Shown here piece after piece: positions 687 through 59,372 of a DNA stretch of 64,000 nucleotides; the stretch's first letter is position 1, and the number at the start of each line of letters is the position of its first letter. Where the stretch lies: NCBI GenBank assembly GCA_027484685.1, contig JAIXSO010000049.1:25310-89309 (forward strand), given 5' to 3'. This DNA is from Bacteroidota bacterium (GTDB lineage Bacteria > Bacteroidota > Bacteroidia > UKL13-3). The position numbers were made by a program, and so were the translations under genes. Below the pieces are notes generated by a model. That model was not told the DNA's origin, ran no database searches, and saw only the letters and a list, made by a program, of their open reading frames with translations.

Positions 687-1838
687 TTAAAGTATTTGTT
701 TATAATAATTTAACAATTTAGCCTCTTCTTTATCCCAATTAAAGTTTTGAGAAGCTAAAATGCAGTTTTTACTCAACTTTTGATAGGTATTTCTATTATT
801 CAGCAATTCATTGATTGCTTTGGCAATCTCGTTAACCTCACAATCAATTAAAACACTACAATTATACTTTTTGTGAACAGCCTGGTATTCAGGAAAATTA
901 GCACAAATACAAGGTACACCGGCCTGCATATAATCAAAAAATTTATTGGCTAACGAGTAATAATAACTCAAACCATTAGGTTCTAATAAATTCAAACCCA
1001 CTTTTGCATTTACTGTTAATTGTTTTAAATCCGCAGGTTGAACAAAACCTAAAAACTGTACTTTATTTTCTAACTTTTCTTTTACAACTAAATCGCGTAA
1101 TTCTCTACTCAAATCGCCTTCTCCAGCTATGAGTAACTTTATATTTTCAACCTGATGCATGGCCAAAATACTTTGCTCCAAACCCCGACTTTTATTTAAA
1201 GCACCTTGGTATAATATGTATCCATTATTTTCCCCATCAACTTCATTAACCTTATCAACCCTATTAACTTCATCAACTCCATCAACTTTATCAACCGCAT
1301 CAACCATAACAGGAACATTCATAATTACCTCAAAATGATTAACATACATATTGCTCAATAAATCAGCCAATTGTGGGCCAACAGTATAACACAACTTTGC
1401 TTTTGGTATAAATATTTTCCCAATCACATGCCAAATGGTTTTGGTAATTTTTCTATTAGTAACCTCTGGAACTTCGGTAAAATGCTCGTGTGCATCAAAA
1501 ATTAAAGTATTGTTATTTAAAGTAGCGGTAATACCACAAGCTAAAATTGTATCTAAATCTATGGCACAAATGGCATTGGTTTTTTGCCTTAACAAATACC
1601 ACAATAACCTCAAATTAAACTCTAAATAAAACAGCTTGCCTTTATTTATTTTACAAGTTAAACGTGTTTGATTAAAGTTAAAGTCTGTTTTTAATGGTTT
1701 GGAATGAGGCAATTTACGACCAACCAATTCCACCTCATAACCTGCATTGGCAAGGCTTGAGCAAATGCGCTGCATGCGTTGGTCGTAACTTAAGTCGTTG
1801 GTTACGGTAAATATTATTTTTTTATTTTTTAGCTGCAA
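687..1838 (-). CDS. Glycosyltransferase family 4 (GT-B fold)
   Basis: 383 residues. The N-terminal domain begins IIFTVTNDLSYDQRMQRICS, typical of Bacteroidota sugar transferases that follow a 'tNDl..DqRm' pattern. The C-terminal nucleotide-sugar domain has YILYQGALNKSRGLE, a 'LLIAGEGD' strand and a final LLNN-type helix. Its ATG lies inside the 3' end of recQ (10 bp overlap), so the two are probably cotranscribed. Between the two Rossmann domains sits a (V-D/N-x)8 stretch encoded by eight 9-bp tandem units, which is not part of the fold and is described separately. The likely role is cell-envelope glycan assembly in the cytoplasm; the substrate cannot be told from sequence. Confidence 0.85.
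   Translation of the reverse strand: MQLKNKKIIFTVTNDLSYDQRMQRICSSLANAGYEVELVGRKLPHSKPLKTDFNFNQTRLTCKINKGKLFYLEFNLRLLWYLLRQKTNAICAIDLDTILACGITATLNNNTLIFDAHEHFTEVPEVTNRKITKTIWHVIGKIFIPKAKLCYTVGPQLADLLSNMYVNHFEVIMNVPVMVDAVDKVDGVDEVNRVDKVNEVDGENNGYILYQGALNKSRGLEQSILAMHQVENIKLLIAGEGDLSRELRDLVVKEKLENKVQFLGFVQPADLKQLTVNAKVGLNLLEPNGLSYYYSLANKFFDYMQAGVPCICANFPEYQAVHKKYNCSVLIDCEVNEIAKAINELLNNRNTYQKLSKNCILASQNFNWDKEEAKLLNYYKQIL
1235..1305 (-). repeat. Eight 9-bp tandem units inside a glycosyltransferase gene
   Basis: On the coding strand the unit is GTTGATnnn (GTTAATnnn in two), giving VDAVDKVDGVDEVNRVDK and onward. The third codon of each unit varies (GCG, AAA, GGA, GAA, AGG, AAG, GAA, GGG) while the first two are fixed. 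It falls at the linker between the two GT-B domains, where a length change should be tolerated. Confidence 0.9.
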
Positions 1839-4415: not shown

Positions 4416-4435
4416 GAGAGGCAAATTTATATTAA

Positions 4436-4460
4436 ATTTTGGATTTTGAATGTTGAATTT
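4436..4460 (+). repeat. Short word repeat (ATTTTGGATTTTGAAT type)
   Basis: Two near-identical 'gaattttggat' words separated by 'tttgaatg' lie directly upstream of the LolD start. They account for the spurious [11 protein letters not shown] in the ORF-track extension of that gene. This is intergenic filler of the same sort as other word repeats in the window. Confidence 0.6.
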
Positions 4461-4481
4461 TGGATGAGTTGGGACAATTGC

Positions 4482-4668: not shown

Positions 4669-5241
4669 TTACAATTTTACATTAACTAAATTCAATGTAT
4701 CATTACTTGTTGGAATAACAATTTGTAGCAATCCTTCTTTTAGTGTAAATAAATATCCTAGTGTAGTAGTAGAATTTTCAGGATTAATTTTTTTAACATT
4801 ATTATAGTAGTTTCCTTCTATTAACAAAGAATCAGAAGATGGTTGTTTTAAATAACCCGCATTTAATGATCTACTCTTGTTCTTGTAACTTATAATCATT
4901 GTTCTACTACCTGGTTTTAAAAAAGTATGTTGTATCGTAATTTTATCACTATTTTTAGTACAAATAAAAACTATGTACCTTCGTTGAAGATTATATGTTT
5001 GGGGGCAATATTCTTGGCTTGTATATTTACCCCAATCATATACATAACCTTGTCCAACAAATAAATTGGTATCTAGAGTAGTTTTATTAATAAAGGTTAG
5101 CTCAGAAAAGTCATTATAGGGTACCACTTTTAACTCTTCTATTGGCTGGTATTCATCACTACTTTGATGACCACAATCACTATCTTTTTTGCAAGAATTA
5201 TTCAATAGCAAGCTAATAATAAATATGAGTTTTAATTTCAT
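4669..5241 (-). CDS. Small putative lipoprotein, unknown function
   Basis: 190 residues from the ATG at 5241; the track start nine codons upstream would bury the signal peptide. MKLKLIFIISLLLNNSCKKD is a lysine-rich start, hydrophobic core and cysteine, compatible with a Bacteroidota lipoprotein although Asn at -2/-3 is not a perfect lipobox. The rest is a predicted beta-rich domain with a C-terminal LQIVIPTSNDTLNLVNVKL strand. No known family is recognised. It is isolated between repeat DNA and the divergent smpB, so no operon clue exists. Confidence 0.6.
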   Translation of the reverse strand: MKLKLIFIISLLLNNSCKKDSDCGHQSSDEYQPIEELKVVPYNDFSELTFINKTTLDTNLFVGQGYVYDWGKYTSQEYCPQTYNLQRRYIVFICTKNSDKITIQHTFLKPGSRTMIISYKNKSRSLNAGYLKQPSSDSLLIEGNYYNNVKKINPENSTTTLGYLFTLKEGLLQIVIPTSNDTLNLVNVKL

Positions 5242-5985: not shown

Positions 5986-6774
5986 ATGAATATAGATTTA
6001 ACAAATAAAAATGCATTGGTTTGCGGTAGTACCAAAGGTATTGGTTATGCCATTGCTATGCAATTAGCAAAATGTGGAGCAAACGTTACTTTAATGGCCC
6101 GAAACGGTAATTTATTACAAAGTATTGTGCGCGATTTAGATACCAGTTTAGGACAAAAACATGATTTTTTAGTTGCCGATTTTAGTCAACCAAAACAAGT
6201 AAAAGAAGCCATAGAAGTACAAGCACAAAAACACCATATTTACCATATTTTGGTGAATAATAGCGGTGGCCCTGTGGCTGGTTTAGCCATTGATGCCAAA
6301 GAAGAAGATTTTTTAAATGCATTTAATGCACATGTTTTAAGTAGCCATCATTTGGTGCAAAGCGTTTTCCCAGGTATGAAACAAGCAGGCTACGGACGCA
6401 TTATAAATATTATTTCTACCAGTGTAAAAATTCCTTTAAAAGGTTTAGGAGTAAGCAATACAATTAGAGGTGCAATGGCTAATTACAGCAAAACATTGGC
6501 TAACGAATTAGCTCCTTTTAAAATTACAGTAAACAATATTTTACCTGGAGCAACAGCAACAGATAGGTTGAAACAAATTATAGACAACAAAGCTCAAAAA
6601 CAACAACACAGCACTGACGAAGTGAGTCAAGAAATGTTAAGCGAAATTCCTATGGGTCGTTTTGGCGAACCAAACGAAATAGCTTATGCAGCTACCTTTT
6701 TAGCTTCGGAATATGCATCGTACATTACTGGAATTAATGTTCCGGTAGATGGAGGAAGAACTGGAAATCTTTAG
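5986..6774 (+). CDS. SDR family protein, BKR-like subgroup without canonical Tyr/Lys
   Basis: 262 residues with Rossmann start NALVCGSTKGIGYAIA, NNSGGPVAG (NNAG position), IISTS and C-terminal PVDGGRTGNL. At the catalytic YxxxK position the sequence reads VSNTIRGAMANYSK, so Tyr becomes Ser and Lys becomes Arg. This matches the known BKR-like subgroup (cd05344 type), often annotated 3-oxoacyl-ACP reductase, that lacks the perfect tetrad; it is therefore not a mutation unique to this gene. Substrate and even oxidoreductase activity are uncertain. It is monocistronic, bounded by word repeats on both sides. Confidence 0.88.
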   Translation: MNIDLTNKNALVCGSTKGIGYAIAMQLAKCGANVTLMARNGNLLQSIVRDLDTSLGQKHDFLVADFSQPKQVKEAIEVQAQKHHIYHILVNNSGGPVAGLAIDAKEEDFLNAFNAHVLSSHHLVQSVFPGMKQAGYGRIINIISTSVKIPLKGLGVSNTIRGAMANYSKTLANELAPFKITVNNILPGATATDRLKQIIDNKAQKQQHSTDEVSQEMLSEIPMGRFGEPNEIAYAATFLASEYASYITGINVPVDGGRTGNL

Positions 6775-6803
6775 TTGATGGTTGATAGTTGTCAGTTGAT
6801 AGA
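6773..6803 (+). repeat. GTTGAT-type word repeat overlapping the SDR stop
   Basis: Begins inside the stop codon of the SDR gene and reads AGTTGATGGTTGATAGTTG and onward. The reverse complement of the insertion inside hisS at 22442-22474 carries nearly the same words (AGTTGATGGTTGTTAGTTGA). Confidence 0.75.
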
Positions 6804-22195: not shown

Positions 22196-23581
22196 ATGGC
22201 AAAAGAAAAACCAAGCATTCCTAAAGGTACCCGCGATTTTGGGCCACAAGAAGTAGCTAAACGAAAATATATTTTAAATACCATTGAAAAAGTTTTTATA
22301 AAATATGGCTTTATGCCTATAGAAACGCCCACCATGGAAAACCTAAGCACACTTACCGGCAAGTATGGCGATGAAGGTGATAAGTTGTTGTTTAAAATAT
22401 TGAATAGCGGTGAATATTTGAAGGAATTAACGCCTGAAATCCTATCAACTAACAACCATCAACTTTCAACTAAACTCATTTCAGAAAAAGGCCTTCGCTA
22501 CGATTTAACAGTTCCTTTTGCGCGCTATGTGGTAATGAATAGAAATGAAATTACTTTTCCGTTTAAGCGTTATCAAATGCAGCCTGTATGGCGCGCTGAT
22601 AAACCTCAAAAAGGGCGTTACCGTGAGTTTTGGCAATGCGATGCGGATGTGGTTGGAAGTGATAGTTTATTGCATGAATTAGATTTGATAAACATTTATA
22701 GTGAAGTTTTTAAGGGTTTAGGTATTGATGTTGAAATTAAAATAAATAACCGTAAAGTTTTAGCTGGAATAGCCGAAGTTGTTAAAGGAATTGAGCACTT
22801 AAACACCATTGCGGTAGCAATTGATAAACTAGATAAAATTGGCAAAGATGGGGTAAGCAAAGAATTATCAGAACTTGGTTTTTCTGATTTAGAAATTGAA
22901 AAACTTTTTGATATTATAACCATAAAAGGCAATGAATCAGAAATGCTTGAAACTTTGAAAATAAAATTACAAAGTTCACAAGAAGGTTTGAAAGGTATTG
23001 AAGAATTAGAATTTATTTTTAACCTAATCAACCAATCAATCAATGAACCTACTAACTTAAAAACCGACTTCTCACTAGCACGTGGCCTCTCCTACTACAC
23101 AGGTTGTATATTTGAAGTAGCTGCGGTGAAAGGTTCATTAAGAAGCAGCATTGGCGGAGGAGGCAGATATGATAACCTTACTGGAATTTTTGGATTAGAT
23201 GGTGTTTCGGGTGTTGGAATATCTTTTGGTTTGGATAGGATTTATGATGTATTAGAAGAATTGAAATTGTTCCCAGAAACATTATCTCAAGGTAGTAGCA
23301 AAGTATTAATTTGTGCAAGTAATTCTATTGAAAATATTGAGCTTGCACCTGTTTTGCAAATATTAGGCACTTTAAGAAATAACGGCATTGCATCGGAATT
23401 ATACACCGAAAAAATTAATGTTAAAAAACCTTTGGAAAAGCCTATTAAATATGCTAGCAGCAAAAAAATTCCTTACGCACTTATTTATACTGAAAACGAA
23501 CCTTTAAAACTAAAAAATTTAGAAACTGGTTTCCAGGAGGAGTTGAGTATGGAGGAAATTGTAGAGAAGTTGAAAGGTTGA
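22196..23581 (+). CDS. hisS: Histidine--tRNA ligase
   Basis: 461 residues. Class II motifs are present: KGTRDFGP, RYDLTVPFARYV (motif around the His pocket), QPVWRADKPQKGRYREFWQC (motif 2), LARGLSYYTGCIFEV, and GISFGLDRIYDVL (motif 3). The C-terminal anticodon domain starts VLICASNSIENIELAP. The segment between KELTPEIL and LISEKGLRYD carries STNNHQLSTK, encoded by a word repeat also found in intergenic DNA. A TTACTTTGCAG box lies about 20 bp upstream of the ATG and may be the -7 element, giving a nearly leaderless mRNA. Confidence 0.97.
   Translation: MAKEKPSIPKGTRDFGPQEVAKRKYILNTIEKVFIKYGFMPIETPTMENLSTLTGKYGDEGDKLLFKILNSGEYLKELTPEILSTNNHQLSTKLISEKGLRYDLTVPFARYVVMNRNEITFPFKRYQMQPVWRADKPQKGRYREFWQCDADVVGSDSLLHELDLINIYSEVFKGLGIDVEIKINNRKVLAGIAEVVKGIEHLNTIAVAIDKLDKIGKDGVSKELSELGFSDLEIEKLFDIITIKGNESEMLETLKIKLQSSQEGLKGIEELEFIFNLINQSINEPTNLKTDFSLARGLSYYTGCIFEVAAVKGSLRSSIGGGGRYDNLTGIFGLDGVSGVGISFGLDRIYDVLEELKLFPETLSQGSSKVLICASNSIENIELAPVLQILGTLRNNGIASELYTEKINVKKPLEKPIKYASSKKIPYALIYTENEPLKLKNLETGFQEELSMEEIVEKLKG
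22442..22474 (+). repeat. Word repeat in frame inside hisS
   Basis: CTATCAACTAACAACCATCA and onward encodes LSTNNHQLSTKL. Its reverse complement shares most of its words with the intergenic repeat at 6773-6803. It sits in a loop just before a conserved aminoacylation motif. Confidence 0.7.
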
Positions 23582-23671
23582 TAAGTTGACTAGTTAGTAA
23601 ATTAATTATTATAAATTTTAAAACAAACTGCTAGTTGCTAGAAGCCAGCTGCTAGTGGCCAAAAGAAAAAA
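23582..23671 (+). repeat. Word-repeat spacer between hisS and hutH
   Basis: The word AGGTTGATAAGTTGACTAG starts within the last codons of hisS (the TGA stop is part of it). A second word family, CTGCTAGTTGCTAGAAGCC, lies nearer to hutH. No promoter box stands out. Confidence 0.55.
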
Positions 23672-55838: not shown

Positions 55839-58800
55839 ATGAAAAAGCAAATTTTATTAATTACCATCCTATTATTAACCAGCAGTTATTTTGTATTTGC
55901 ACAAGCTCCACCTCAAGCTTTCAAATACCAATCTATAGTTAGAAATGCCACTGGAAACCCAATGGTCAATGCCAGTATTCGTATAAAAGCAATCATTCAT
56001 GCAAACGCAATTACTGGTGCAATTTTATACCAAGAATCACATAACATAATTACCAATCAATATGGATTAATAAACCTTGAAATTGGAAATGGAACTGTGG
56101 AATTGGGCGCATTTTCGGCCATTTCATGGATAACAGGAACAAATTGGATAGAAATACAAGCCGACTTTGGAAACGGTTATGTTGTTATGGGAACTTCGCA
56201 ACTGCTAAGCGTACCTTATGCACTTAATTGTGGAAACGGAACTATAGGTCCAAAAGGAGATATTGGTTTAACAGGTCCACAAGGTTTAACCGGAACTACT
56301 GGAGCTAAAGGCGATTCTGGTGCAGTTGGTTCACAAGGGATCATTGGTCTTACTGGTTTAACTGGAGCCAATGGTGCAAAAGGTGATTCAGGGGCGATTG
56401 GTTCACAAGGTATCATTGGTCTAACTGGTTCACAAGGTAGCATTGGTTTGACTGGATTAACTGGAGCAAAAGGCGATTCAGGTGCAATTGGTCCTCAAGG
56501 TAATATTGGCTTAACAGGAACTCAAGGAAACATTGGTTTAACCGGAGCAATTGGAGCTAAAGGCGACTCAGGAGCGATTGGTCCGCGAGGAAATATCGGT
56601 TTAACTGGAGCCAATGGTGCAAAAGGTGATTCTGGTGCAACTGGGCCACAAGGTAACATTGGTCTTACAGGTTTAACTGGAGCACTTGGAGCAAAAGGTG
56701 ATTCTGGTGCAATTGGTCCACAAGGAAACATTGGATTGACTGGTTTAACTGGAGCTACTGGAGCAAAAGGAGATTCTGGTGCGATTGGTCCACAAGGTAA
56801 TATTGGCTTAACAGGAGCTCAAGGAAACATTGGTTTTACTGGTTCACAAGGTAGCATTGGCTTGACTGGTTTAACAGGAGCAATTGGAGCAAAAGGTGAT
56901 TCAGGTGCAATTGGTCCTCAAGGAAATATTGGTTTAACTGGTTTAACCGGAGCAATTGGTGTAAAAGGCGATTCAGGAGCGATTGGTCCACAAGGTAATA
57001 TCGGATTAACTGGCTCCCAAGGAATCATTGGTCTTACAGGTTTAACTGGATTAACTGGATCTAATGGCGCGAAAGGCGATTCAGGTGCAATTGGTCCTCA
57101 AGGTACTATTGGCTTAACAGGAACTCAAGGAAACATTGGTTTAACCGGATTAACCGGAGCAATTGGAGCTAAAGGCGATTCAGGTGCAATTGGTCCACAA
57201 GGAAATATTGGATTAACGGGTTTAACTGGATTAACTGGAGCAAAAGGTGATTCAGGTGCAATTGGTCCGCAAGGTAATATCGGATTAACTGGTTCACAAG
57301 GAAGCATTGGTCTTACTGGTGTTCAAGGTAACATTGGTCTTACAGGTTTAACTGGAGCAATTGGAGCAAAAGGTGATTCTGGTTTAGTTGGTCCACAAGG
57401 TAATATTGGATTAACTGGTTCTCAAGGAATCATTGGTTTGACTGGTTTAACTGGAGCCATTGGCTCAAAAGGTGATTCAGGTTCAGTTGGACCACAAGGA
57501 ATAATTGGTCTTACAGGTTTAACAGGAACTACTGGCGCAAAAGGCGATTCAGGTGCAGTTGGTTCACAAGGAATAATCGGTTTAACTGGTTTAACAGGAG
57601 CTAATGGCGCAAAAGGTGATTCAGGTTTAACTGGTCTTCAAGGCAATATTGGTTTAACTGGTTCACAAGGTAGCATTGGCTTGACTGGTTTAACCGGAGC
57701 TAAAGGCGATTCTGGTGCAATTGGTCCACAAGGAATCATCGGCTTAACTGGTTCTCAAGGAAACATCGGATTAACTGGTTCACAAGGAATCATTGGTCTT
57801 ACTGGAGCTAAAGGAGATTCTGGTTCAATCGGTCCACAAGGTAATATTGGATTAACTGGACTACAAGGAATAATTGGCTTGACAGGATTAGCTGGAGCAA
57901 AAGGCGATTCTGGTTCAATTGGTCCACAAGGTAATATTGGTTTAACTGGTTCACAAGGTAGCATTGGCTTGACTGGTTTAACAGGAGCAATTGGAGCTAA
58001 AGGCGACTCAGGAGCGATTGGTCCGCGAGGAAATATCGGTTTAACAGGAGCCAATGGTGCAAAAGGTGATTCTGGTGCAACTGGTCCACAAGGAAACATT
58101 GGATTAACTGGTTTAACTGGAGCAAAAGGAGATTCTGGTGCAATTGGACCGCAAGGAAATATTGGTTTAATTGGTTCGCAAGGTATCATTGGTTTGACAG
58201 GATTAACTGGAGCTAAAGGTGATTCAGGTGCAATTGGTCTTCAAGGTAATATTGGTTTAACGGGTTTAACAGGTTCTCAAGGTAATATTGGTTTGACTGG
58301 ATTAACTGGAGCAAAAGGTGATTCGGGTGCAGTTGGTTCGCAAGGAAACATTGGTTTAACTGGTCTTCAAGGTAGCATTGGTTTGACTGGATTAACCGGA
58401 GCTAAAGGTGATTCAGGTGCAATTGGTCCTCAAGGTAATATTGGATTAACTGGTTCGCAAGGAAATATTGGTTTAACTGGATTAACTGGAGCTAATGGTG
58501 CAAAAGGTGATTCGGGTTTAATTGGTTCTCAAGGAATCATTGGTTTAACTGGAGCTAAAGGCGATTCAGGTGTAATTGGGCCACAAGGTAATATTGGTTT
58601 AACTGGTCTTCAAGGTAGCATCGGTTTAACTGGCTTAACTGGTTCTCAAGGAAGCATTGGTTTAACTGGATTAACAGGAGCTAAAGGCGATTCAGGTGCA
58701 ATTGGTCAGCAAGGAAATATTGGATTAACGGGTTTAACTGGTTCTCAAGGTAATATTGGTTTAACTGGTTTAACTGGAGCCATTGGAGCTAAAGGTGATT

Positions 58801-59372
58801 CTGGTTCAATTGGTTCACAAGGTAGTATTGGTTTAACTGGAGCCAATGGCGCGAAAGGCGATTCAGGTGCAATTGGTGCTCAAGGACCAACAGGTGCCAC
58901 TGGTACTATTTTACAATTCGCTATGTTTTATGGCTTAACTGCCGGAACAGGAAATACCATTGCAACCGATTATGCAGCAACAATTGCTGTAAAAACCATT
59001 AATGGCAGCGGACGAGTTCCTTTTCCGCGTAATGGTCCTTCAGCAGGTATTTCTAGAGTTGATAATACTAGTTTTACATTAGCAAGCATAGGCACTTATG
59101 AAATAACTTTTAACGTTCATACTACCGAACCTGGACAATTACAACTTGAATTAAATAATATAGATTTACCAGAAACAATAGCTACCAATATGAATCCCAC
59201 AGCTGGTGGACATCCAATAATAGGTAATTTCTTTATTACCACAATTTCGGTAAATTCCATATTAGCATTGGTAAATCCTACAGGCAATACTCCAGCACTT
59301 ACCATTACACCAGCAAATGGAGCTAGCACGCATGCTAACTCGCAAACCATATCAATTAAAAAAATTTATTAG
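55839..59372 (+). CDS. Collagen-like surface protein with C1q/BclA-like head
   Basis: 1177 residues. Signal peptide ending FVFAQ. An N-terminal beta domain (KYQSIVRNATGNPMVNASIR to LLSVPYAL) of the kind often found before Bacteroidota collagen-like repeats and tail-fibre-like modules. Then 886 residues of uninterrupted Gly-X-Y (about 137-1022), dominated by GLTG, GNIG, GPQG and AKGDSGAIG. The C-terminal 150 residues start QFAMFYGLTAGTGNTIATDY and end SQTISIKKIY, a TNF/C1q-like trimerisation head as in BclA. No T9SS tail is present, so the export route is open. It is probably a trimeric rod on the cell surface. Confidence 0.9.
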   Translation: MKKQILLITILLLTSSYFVFAQAPPQAFKYQSIVRNATGNPMVNASIRIKAIIHANAITGAILYQESHNIITNQYGLINLEIGNGTVELGAFSAISWITGTNWIEIQADFGNGYVVMGTSQLLSVPYALNCGNGTIGPKGDIGLTGPQGLTGTTGAKGDSGAVGSQGIIGLTGLTGANGAKGDSGAIGSQGIIGLTGSQGSIGLTGLTGAKGDSGAIGPQGNIGLTGTQGNIGLTGAIGAKGDSGAIGPRGNIGLTGANGAKGDSGATGPQGNIGLTGLTGALGAKGDSGAIGPQGNIGLTGLTGATGAKGDSGAIGPQGNIGLTGAQGNIGFTGSQGSIGLTGLTGAIGAKGDSGAIGPQGNIGLTGLTGAIGVKGDSGAIGPQGNIGLTGSQGIIGLTGLTGLTGSNGAKGDSGAIGPQGTIGLTGTQGNIGLTGLTGAIGAKGDSGAIGPQGNIGLTGLTGLTGAKGDSGAIGPQGNIGLTGSQGSIGLTGVQGNIGLTGLTGAIGAKGDSGLVGPQGNIGLTGSQGIIGLTGLTGAIGSKGDSGSVGPQGIIGLTGLTGTTGAKGDSGAVGSQGIIGLTGLTGANGAKGDSGLTGLQGNIGLTGSQGSIGLTGLTGAKGDSGAIGPQGIIGLTGSQGNIGLTGSQGIIGLTGAKGDSGSIGPQGNIGLTGLQGIIGLTGLAGAKGDSGSIGPQGNIGLTGSQGSIGLTGLTGAIGAKGDSGAIGPRGNIGLTGANGAKGDSGATGPQGNIGLTGLTGAKGDSGAIGPQGNIGLIGSQGIIGLTGLTGAKGDSGAIGLQGNIGLTGLTGSQGNIGLTGLTGAKGDSGAVGSQGNIGLTGLQGSIGLTGLTGAKGDSGAIGPQGNIGLTGSQGNIGLTGLTGANGAKGDSGLIGSQGIIGLTGAKGDSGVIGPQGNIGLTGLQGSIGLTGLTGSQGSIGLTGLTGAKGDSGAIGQQGNIGLTGLTGSQGNIGLTGLTGAIGAKGDSGSIGSQGSIGLTGANGAKGDSGAIGAQGPTGATGTILQFAMFYGLTAGTGNTIATDYAATIAVKTINGSGRVPFPRNGPSAGISRVDNTSFTLASIGTYEITFNVHTTEPGQLQLELNNIDLPETIATNMNPTAGGHPIIGNFFITTISVNSILALVNPTGNTPALTITPANGASTHANSQTISIKKIY
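56247..58904 (+). repeat. Collagen Gly-X-Y coding repeat array (2.66 kb)
   Basis: Exactly 886 Gly-X-Y-phase codons in 9- and 18-bp nested units. The block around GGTCCGCGAGGAAATATCGG (56549-56660) recurs at 57989-58100 with about three differences, exactly 1440 bp apart (160 x 9). Arg occurs in the array only in these two blocks. Confidence 0.92.

Follow-up and report, generated by a model that had tools for sequence, protein, structure and literature searches.

Intergenic repeats that invade genes in frame are known best from Rickettsia, in the form of palindromes. These Rickettsia palindromic elements (RPEs) are inserted into genes that encode proteins (Ogata et al. 2000, as described in PMC10969869). 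Direct repeats of the heptamer TAACTGA, by comparison, are mainly intergenic and occur in Beggiatoaceae, Cyanobacteria and some Bacteroidetes, where the survey that described them found other heptamer arrays beside them and one set inside purC (PMC4679880). Heptameric simple sequence repeats (SSRs), with words such as GGGAATC and GGGGA(C/T)T, are known from Xanthomonas and Nostoc (PMC4692102).

The window analyzed here, a stretch of 64,000 nucleotides from a Bacteroidota genome, carries an array of GTTRAT words inside a glycosyltransferase gene. With RPEs, as PMC10969869 presents them, it shares a single repeat family that lies in frame in several unrelated genes and is tolerated by the host protein. 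RPEs, however, are palindromic units of about 100-150 bp, whereas the GTTRAT arrays are direct repeats of 8-9 bp without an inverted repeat, and their coding copies change by whole 9-bp units. The TAACTGA repeats are likewise arrays of short direct-repeat words, mainly intergenic and present in Bacteroidetes too (PMC4679880), but they are exact, unspaced heptamers, whereas here a degenerate GTTRAT word is separated by spacers of 2-3 nt and has intruded in frame repeatedly, in several genes. Measured against an unspaced 7-bp tandem of TAACTGA, the GTTRAT spacing is 8-9 bp, and a period of 7 occurs only at window position 6772, with the word TAGTTGA. The heptameric SSRs resemble our case in being short tandem words that occur throughout the genome, are enriched between genes and vary in unit number, but they are G-rich and quadruplex-forming, which GTTRAT is not (PMC4692102). 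Coding minisatellites (VNTRs) share the whole-unit, in-frame differences in copy number and the location in a disordered protein segment. Differences of this kind separate species here (8, 6, 5, 4, 3 and 3 units in the glycosyltransferase, and a 54-bp intergenic difference between G000 and G003), but GTTRAT units are only about 73% alike and the word family is dispersed between genes. By the features tested, the GTTRAT case combines RPE-like in-frame tolerance with heptamer-like word arrays, but belongs neither to the RPEs nor to the TAACTGA or G-rich heptamer repeats. A description of word arrays invading genes in Bacteroidota was not found in the open-access literature.

We consider it very likely that the glycosyltransferase segment belongs to a genus-specific, mainly intergenic family of degenerate direct-repeat arrays that entered tolerant genes, and that it is kept as a tolerated spacer in a disordered joint, with gain and loss of whole units. 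Gene invasion would then extend to very short word arrays and to free-living Bacteroidota, where a single genus has them in several of its genes.

The array and its host protein

The open reading frame at window positions 687-1838 (minus strand) encodes 383 amino acids from a TTG start, which overlaps the upstream recQ-like gene by 10 bp. Its C-terminal domain (residues 203-358) matches PF00534 (Glycos_transf_1) with 70.9 bits against a curated cut-off of 26.4, and structure comparison of the fold returns GT-B enzymes, including BshA and HepE, at a TM of about 0.75. Domain match and model identify the protein as a glycosyltransferase of GT-B fold, with a predicted transfer activity. The AlphaFold model, built with 29 homologues, has a mean pLDDT of 88 and two Rossmann-like domains. 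The linker between them, as delimited by the model and by homologue comparison, spans window positions 1220-1320 (minus strand; about residues 173-207). The only stretch with pLDDT below 50, residues 182-203, falls at the array between the two folded domains, and the array segment is predicted to be a disordered interdomain joint.

The array itself (1236-1304, minus strand; residues 179-201) consists of eight words at 9-bp steps, in frame with the gene. Read from 1304 to 1236, the words are GTTGAT except for the fifth and seventh, which are GTTAAT, and the spacer codons are GCG, AAA, GGA, GAA, AGG, AAG, GAA and GGG; the peptide is V-D-A-V-D-K-V-D-G-V-D-E-V-N-R-V-D-K-V-N-E-V-D, or (V-D/N-x)8. 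The earlier note on this DNA had described eight in-frame GTTGATnnn units with a varying third codon. Count, frame and 9-bp spacing agree with that description, but two of the eight words encode Val-Asn, and the third codon, while it differs between units, does not vary freely, being purine-only in seven of eight (the exception is GCG). Within the window, GTTGATNNNGTTGAT occurs at this array only and matches in 0 of 100 shuffles, and a genome search with the pattern GTTRATRRRx2 gave 26 exact matches, the reversed control none; the array is therefore not a product of chance.

A word family of one genus

The GTTRAT family, as genome searches define it, is specific to a single freshwater genus of Bacteroidota. 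GTTRATRRRx2 is found in all 10 genomes of the genus, the three-unit pattern in 7 of these 10 and in none of 48 other genomes of the family, and four GTTGAT words, searched for across the class, were found in 2 of 149 genomes, the second being G076. Among the places read, the family is mostly intergenic. The 23 intergenic arrays read have a spacing of 8 or 9 bp and spacers that often start with T (TGA, TAA, TGG), and only two of them leave the V-D-x frame open throughout.

Two related arrays lie in the window itself, both on the plus strand: the intergenic TAGTTGA array of period 7 (6772-6802), located right where an SDR-like gene (5986-6774) has its stop codon, and an array of period 8 (23568-23600; GTTGAAAG GTTGATAA GTTGACTA GTTAGTAA) at a gene end or in intergenic sequence. 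GTTGAT words had been pointed out before at these two places, at 6773 and 23573; they are present, but not at the 9-bp spacing of the coding array. A further word array in the window, of the heptamer AATTTTG (4435-4466), lies in the reading frame of an ABC-transporter ATPase, towards its N-terminus, and is read as 13 amino acids if the long start is used; it is probably an intergenic array drawn into the frame by the choice of start.

Coding arrays are read in frame only as 9-bp, stop-free versions. Four genes hold them: those of the glycosyltransferase, of an M1-family peptidase and of a TPR-containing protein, and that of an amino-acid permease (APC), in which the array is read from the opposite strand. 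In the peptidase, the array follows directly after the peptidase domain in the V-D-x frame; its units vary across the seven species that carry it and include degenerate words (GTTGGT, GTTAAA, GTTGAA), while the orthologues in G001 and G005 have none. In three species the TPR-containing protein includes three words, again in the V-D-x frame. In the permease the array occupies a loop whose sequence varies strongly between species, and it is read as S-T-x. The permease orthologue of G005, from a metagenome assembly (L189), contains one in-frame TGA.

The spacers of coding and other copies differ accordingly in kind. Among arrays located by exact word and purine-spacer pattern, which overstates the conservation of words and spacers, all 36 sense coding spacers are 3 nt long and none contains a stop. 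Spacers starting with T number 0 of 36 in sense coding arrays versus 28 of 76 (Fisher, about 3e-6), and 2-nt spacers 0 of 36 versus 27 of 76 (about 7e-6); as arrays of orthologues are not independent, we also counted one array per gene, which gives P = 0.008 and 0.015, respectively. The 8/9-spaced "genic" matches L213 and L216 resemble chance words in a single conserved protein of 426 amino acids and were excluded from the coding counts; the "antisense genic" calls at L208 and L221 depend on reading frames that are doubtful. Two proposals of the earlier note are borne out by these data: that an intergenic repeat intruded into a gene, the family being present in all genomes of the genus, mostly intergenic and also found in unrelated genes; and that the word has stayed in frame, sense coding copies alone being purged of stops and of 8-bp steps.

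Intergenic sites differ between species as well. One such site lies upstream of a surE-like gene: here G000 has both a Flavo-1 RNA and an array, and neither is found in G003, G006, G005, G008 or G001. At a second site, downstream of a different gene, the length in G000 and in G003 differs by 54 bp, or six units, while the site is more degenerate in G006 and empty in G005. Copies of Flavo-1 RNA (RF01705) lie near arrays in G000 at L150:4860-4957 and L153:4612-4712, and L153 has another, partial Flavo-1-like stretch (at about 4920-4984) that runs straight into the array. We considered and rejected a larger mobile element made up of array and Flavo-1, as none of the other arrays read has Flavo-1 beside it; with neighbours at L150 and L153 only, the two are probably mere intergenic neighbours. 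A REP or MITE nature was considered and rejected for lack of inverted repeats, none being found in the glycosyltransferase array or in one intergenic array tested. At L145:10565-10640, a second intergenic word family (AATTGTTGTATTGCTG...) adjoins a GTTRAT array; it has matches in all genomes of the genus and is very variable in length.

That the words stay alike while the spacers vary in length and sequence might suggest that the arrays are functional sites in DNA or RNA, whether protein-binding iterons or RNA words, and that the copy in the glycosyltransferase is a working site. The GUUGAU word can pair with itself through G-U wobbles, the RNA of the glycosyltransferase array folds slightly better than its shuffles (z = -2.2), and a role as sites of translational control has been proposed for the TAACTGA repeats of Beggiatoaceae (PMC4679880). 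Yet the centroid fold of the array RNA is almost unpaired, the arrays are inconsistent in position and orientation relative to genes, and their presence and length differ between close species; moreover, the exact-word search inflates the apparent conservation of the word. We regard such a function as unlikely.

Unit number and codon use across orthologues

The number of units in the glycosyltransferase falls from eight in G000 through six in G006, five in G001 and four in G002 to three in G004 and G008. The orthologues in G009 and G005 have no array and their linkers are unrelated, and no VDx linker was found among homologues beyond the genus. These comparisons are between species, with one genome per species; the genus is uncultivated and the relatives are mostly metagenome assemblies of freshwater Bacteroidetes. 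A change from empty to filled inside a single species was not observed. The closest pair of glycosyltransferases is 89% identical, yet has eight and six units. Linkers in homologues are mostly 11-16 amino acids long and the three-unit linkers of G004 and G008 have 14, so three units add no length, while eight add about 16 residues. The view that the array invented a linker between the GT-B domains therefore fits the lengthening by further units but not the three-unit versions, which are of ordinary length. In a gene tree built with the linker removed, the array bearers cluster, and one or two gains of the array are both compatible with it.

The codons of the array are strikingly uniform. GTT encodes all 28 of its valines in the six species, whereas outside the array the gene uses GTT for 69 of 122, and aligned valine pairs have the identical codon in 45 of 45 cases in the array against 173 of 234 elsewhere, figures that are descriptive because the six sequences are related. 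This uniformity indicates that DNA words, not a Val-Asp peptide, are conserved, and is the opposite of what selection on the peptide alone would leave. It weighs against the explanation that (VDx)n is a selected peptide, for instance a motif which the enzyme requires for binding or spacing, and that the regularity of the DNA is a by-product of repeated codons. Such selection could account for a frame and a V-D/N identity kept over six species, and for the V-D-x frame shared by the M1 peptidase and the TPR-containing protein. It sits poorly, however, with a copy number that ranges from 3 to 8 and is zero in close relatives, with identical DNA words in stop-containing intergenic arrays, with the S-T-x reading of the opposite strand in the permease and with the disorder of the segment in the AlphaFold model, and we regard it as largely refuted, with even less credence than a functional nucleic acid site. 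The earlier note had named an alignment with close homologues as a check and a VDx linker in distant genera, written in unrelated codons, as the finding that would count against intrusion; the alignment finds the segment only in this genus, and within the genus the DNA words are the same. An assembly or annotation artefact, which error-prone tandem repeats and relatives known mostly from metagenomes might suggest, is refuted by orthologues in six separately assembled species that carry distinct units at the same place in an intact frame, and its probability is negligible.

In the explanation that we favor, the array is an intergenic repeat that entered tolerant genes: GTTRAT words with mostly purine spacers of 2-3 nt lie mainly between genes and would enter genes where the protein tolerates them. 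The joint between the two Rossmann domains gains and loses whole 9-bp units, replication slippage may change their number, and purifying selection may remove copies that are out of frame, contain a stop or fall in a structured region. The array would then have no positive function in the glycosyltransferase beyond that of a tolerated spacer. Neighboring spacers in the gene differ, so plain recent slippage is insufficient, and the array is either old and mutated or was built from variable units. A second misfit with plain slippage is that the words stay alike while spacer length varies, a likeness that the exact-word search inflates. The words may have reached new sites by spreading. The earlier phrase of a spreading, selected word captures the change in whole-unit copy number, but goes beyond the data as to active spread from place to place.

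The interdomain joint across Bacteroidota

Unexpectedly, the joint proves to be a recurrent landing site. Periodic DNA of 7-9 bp rises above threshold in the linker of 15 of 90 Bacteroidota homologues of the glycosyltransferase, five of them from the genus (three settings of the scan give 12-15 positives), and elsewhere in the gene in none of the 90. The linker words are unrelated between lineages: GGTGGAC in L079, AATCAYC in L072, GTCGCACA in L096 and CTCAACTC in L119 and L121, the last being repeated yet below the periodicity threshold. In the genome of L079, tandem GGTGGAC has 84 matches with at most one mismatch, the linker itself among them, against 0 for the control. AGTCGCA/AGTCGTA words lie directly upstream of the glycosyltransferase gene in L096, and L119 and L121 have CTCAACTC arrays in the space that separates two genes of the enzyme's own locus. 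At the level of sequence, the linker words clearly match the home genome's own intergenic repeats in these three lineages checked (L079, L096 and L119/L121). The match to a home source is weak for L072, in whose genome tandem AATCAYC is found at only a few places.

A broader possibility, which we advance tentatively and think rather doubtful, is that the intergenic words of each lineage independently enter this joint, making it a natural trap, and that active copying of words, not only slippage in place, supplies them. If so, the joint would record which words are spreading in each genome. The joint offers a comparative system in any case, with one site, many intrusions and the home intergenic arrays as a source for comparison, and it may be used to study the origin and spread of short words and the way in which non-coding DNA supplies proteins with new linker sequence.

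Other kinds of repeat were seen in passing. Between two genes, at L119:1000-1110 and L121:990-1110, GTTGAGGA-type words lie on one side and inverse CTCAACTC words on the other, flanking a stem (CTACCGCGAG...CTCGCGGTAG), so that the arrays are placed as the arms of a hairpin. The linker of the homologue in L016 (2011-2079) contains an in-frame, GC-rich, palindrome-like piece that resembles a REP (LAVIPPPRSGEGWGGVLG). In the window itself, positions 56283-58903 hold a long collagen-like repeat region with units of the type G-L-T-G-x-x-G-A-K-G-D-S-G and periods of 27-126.
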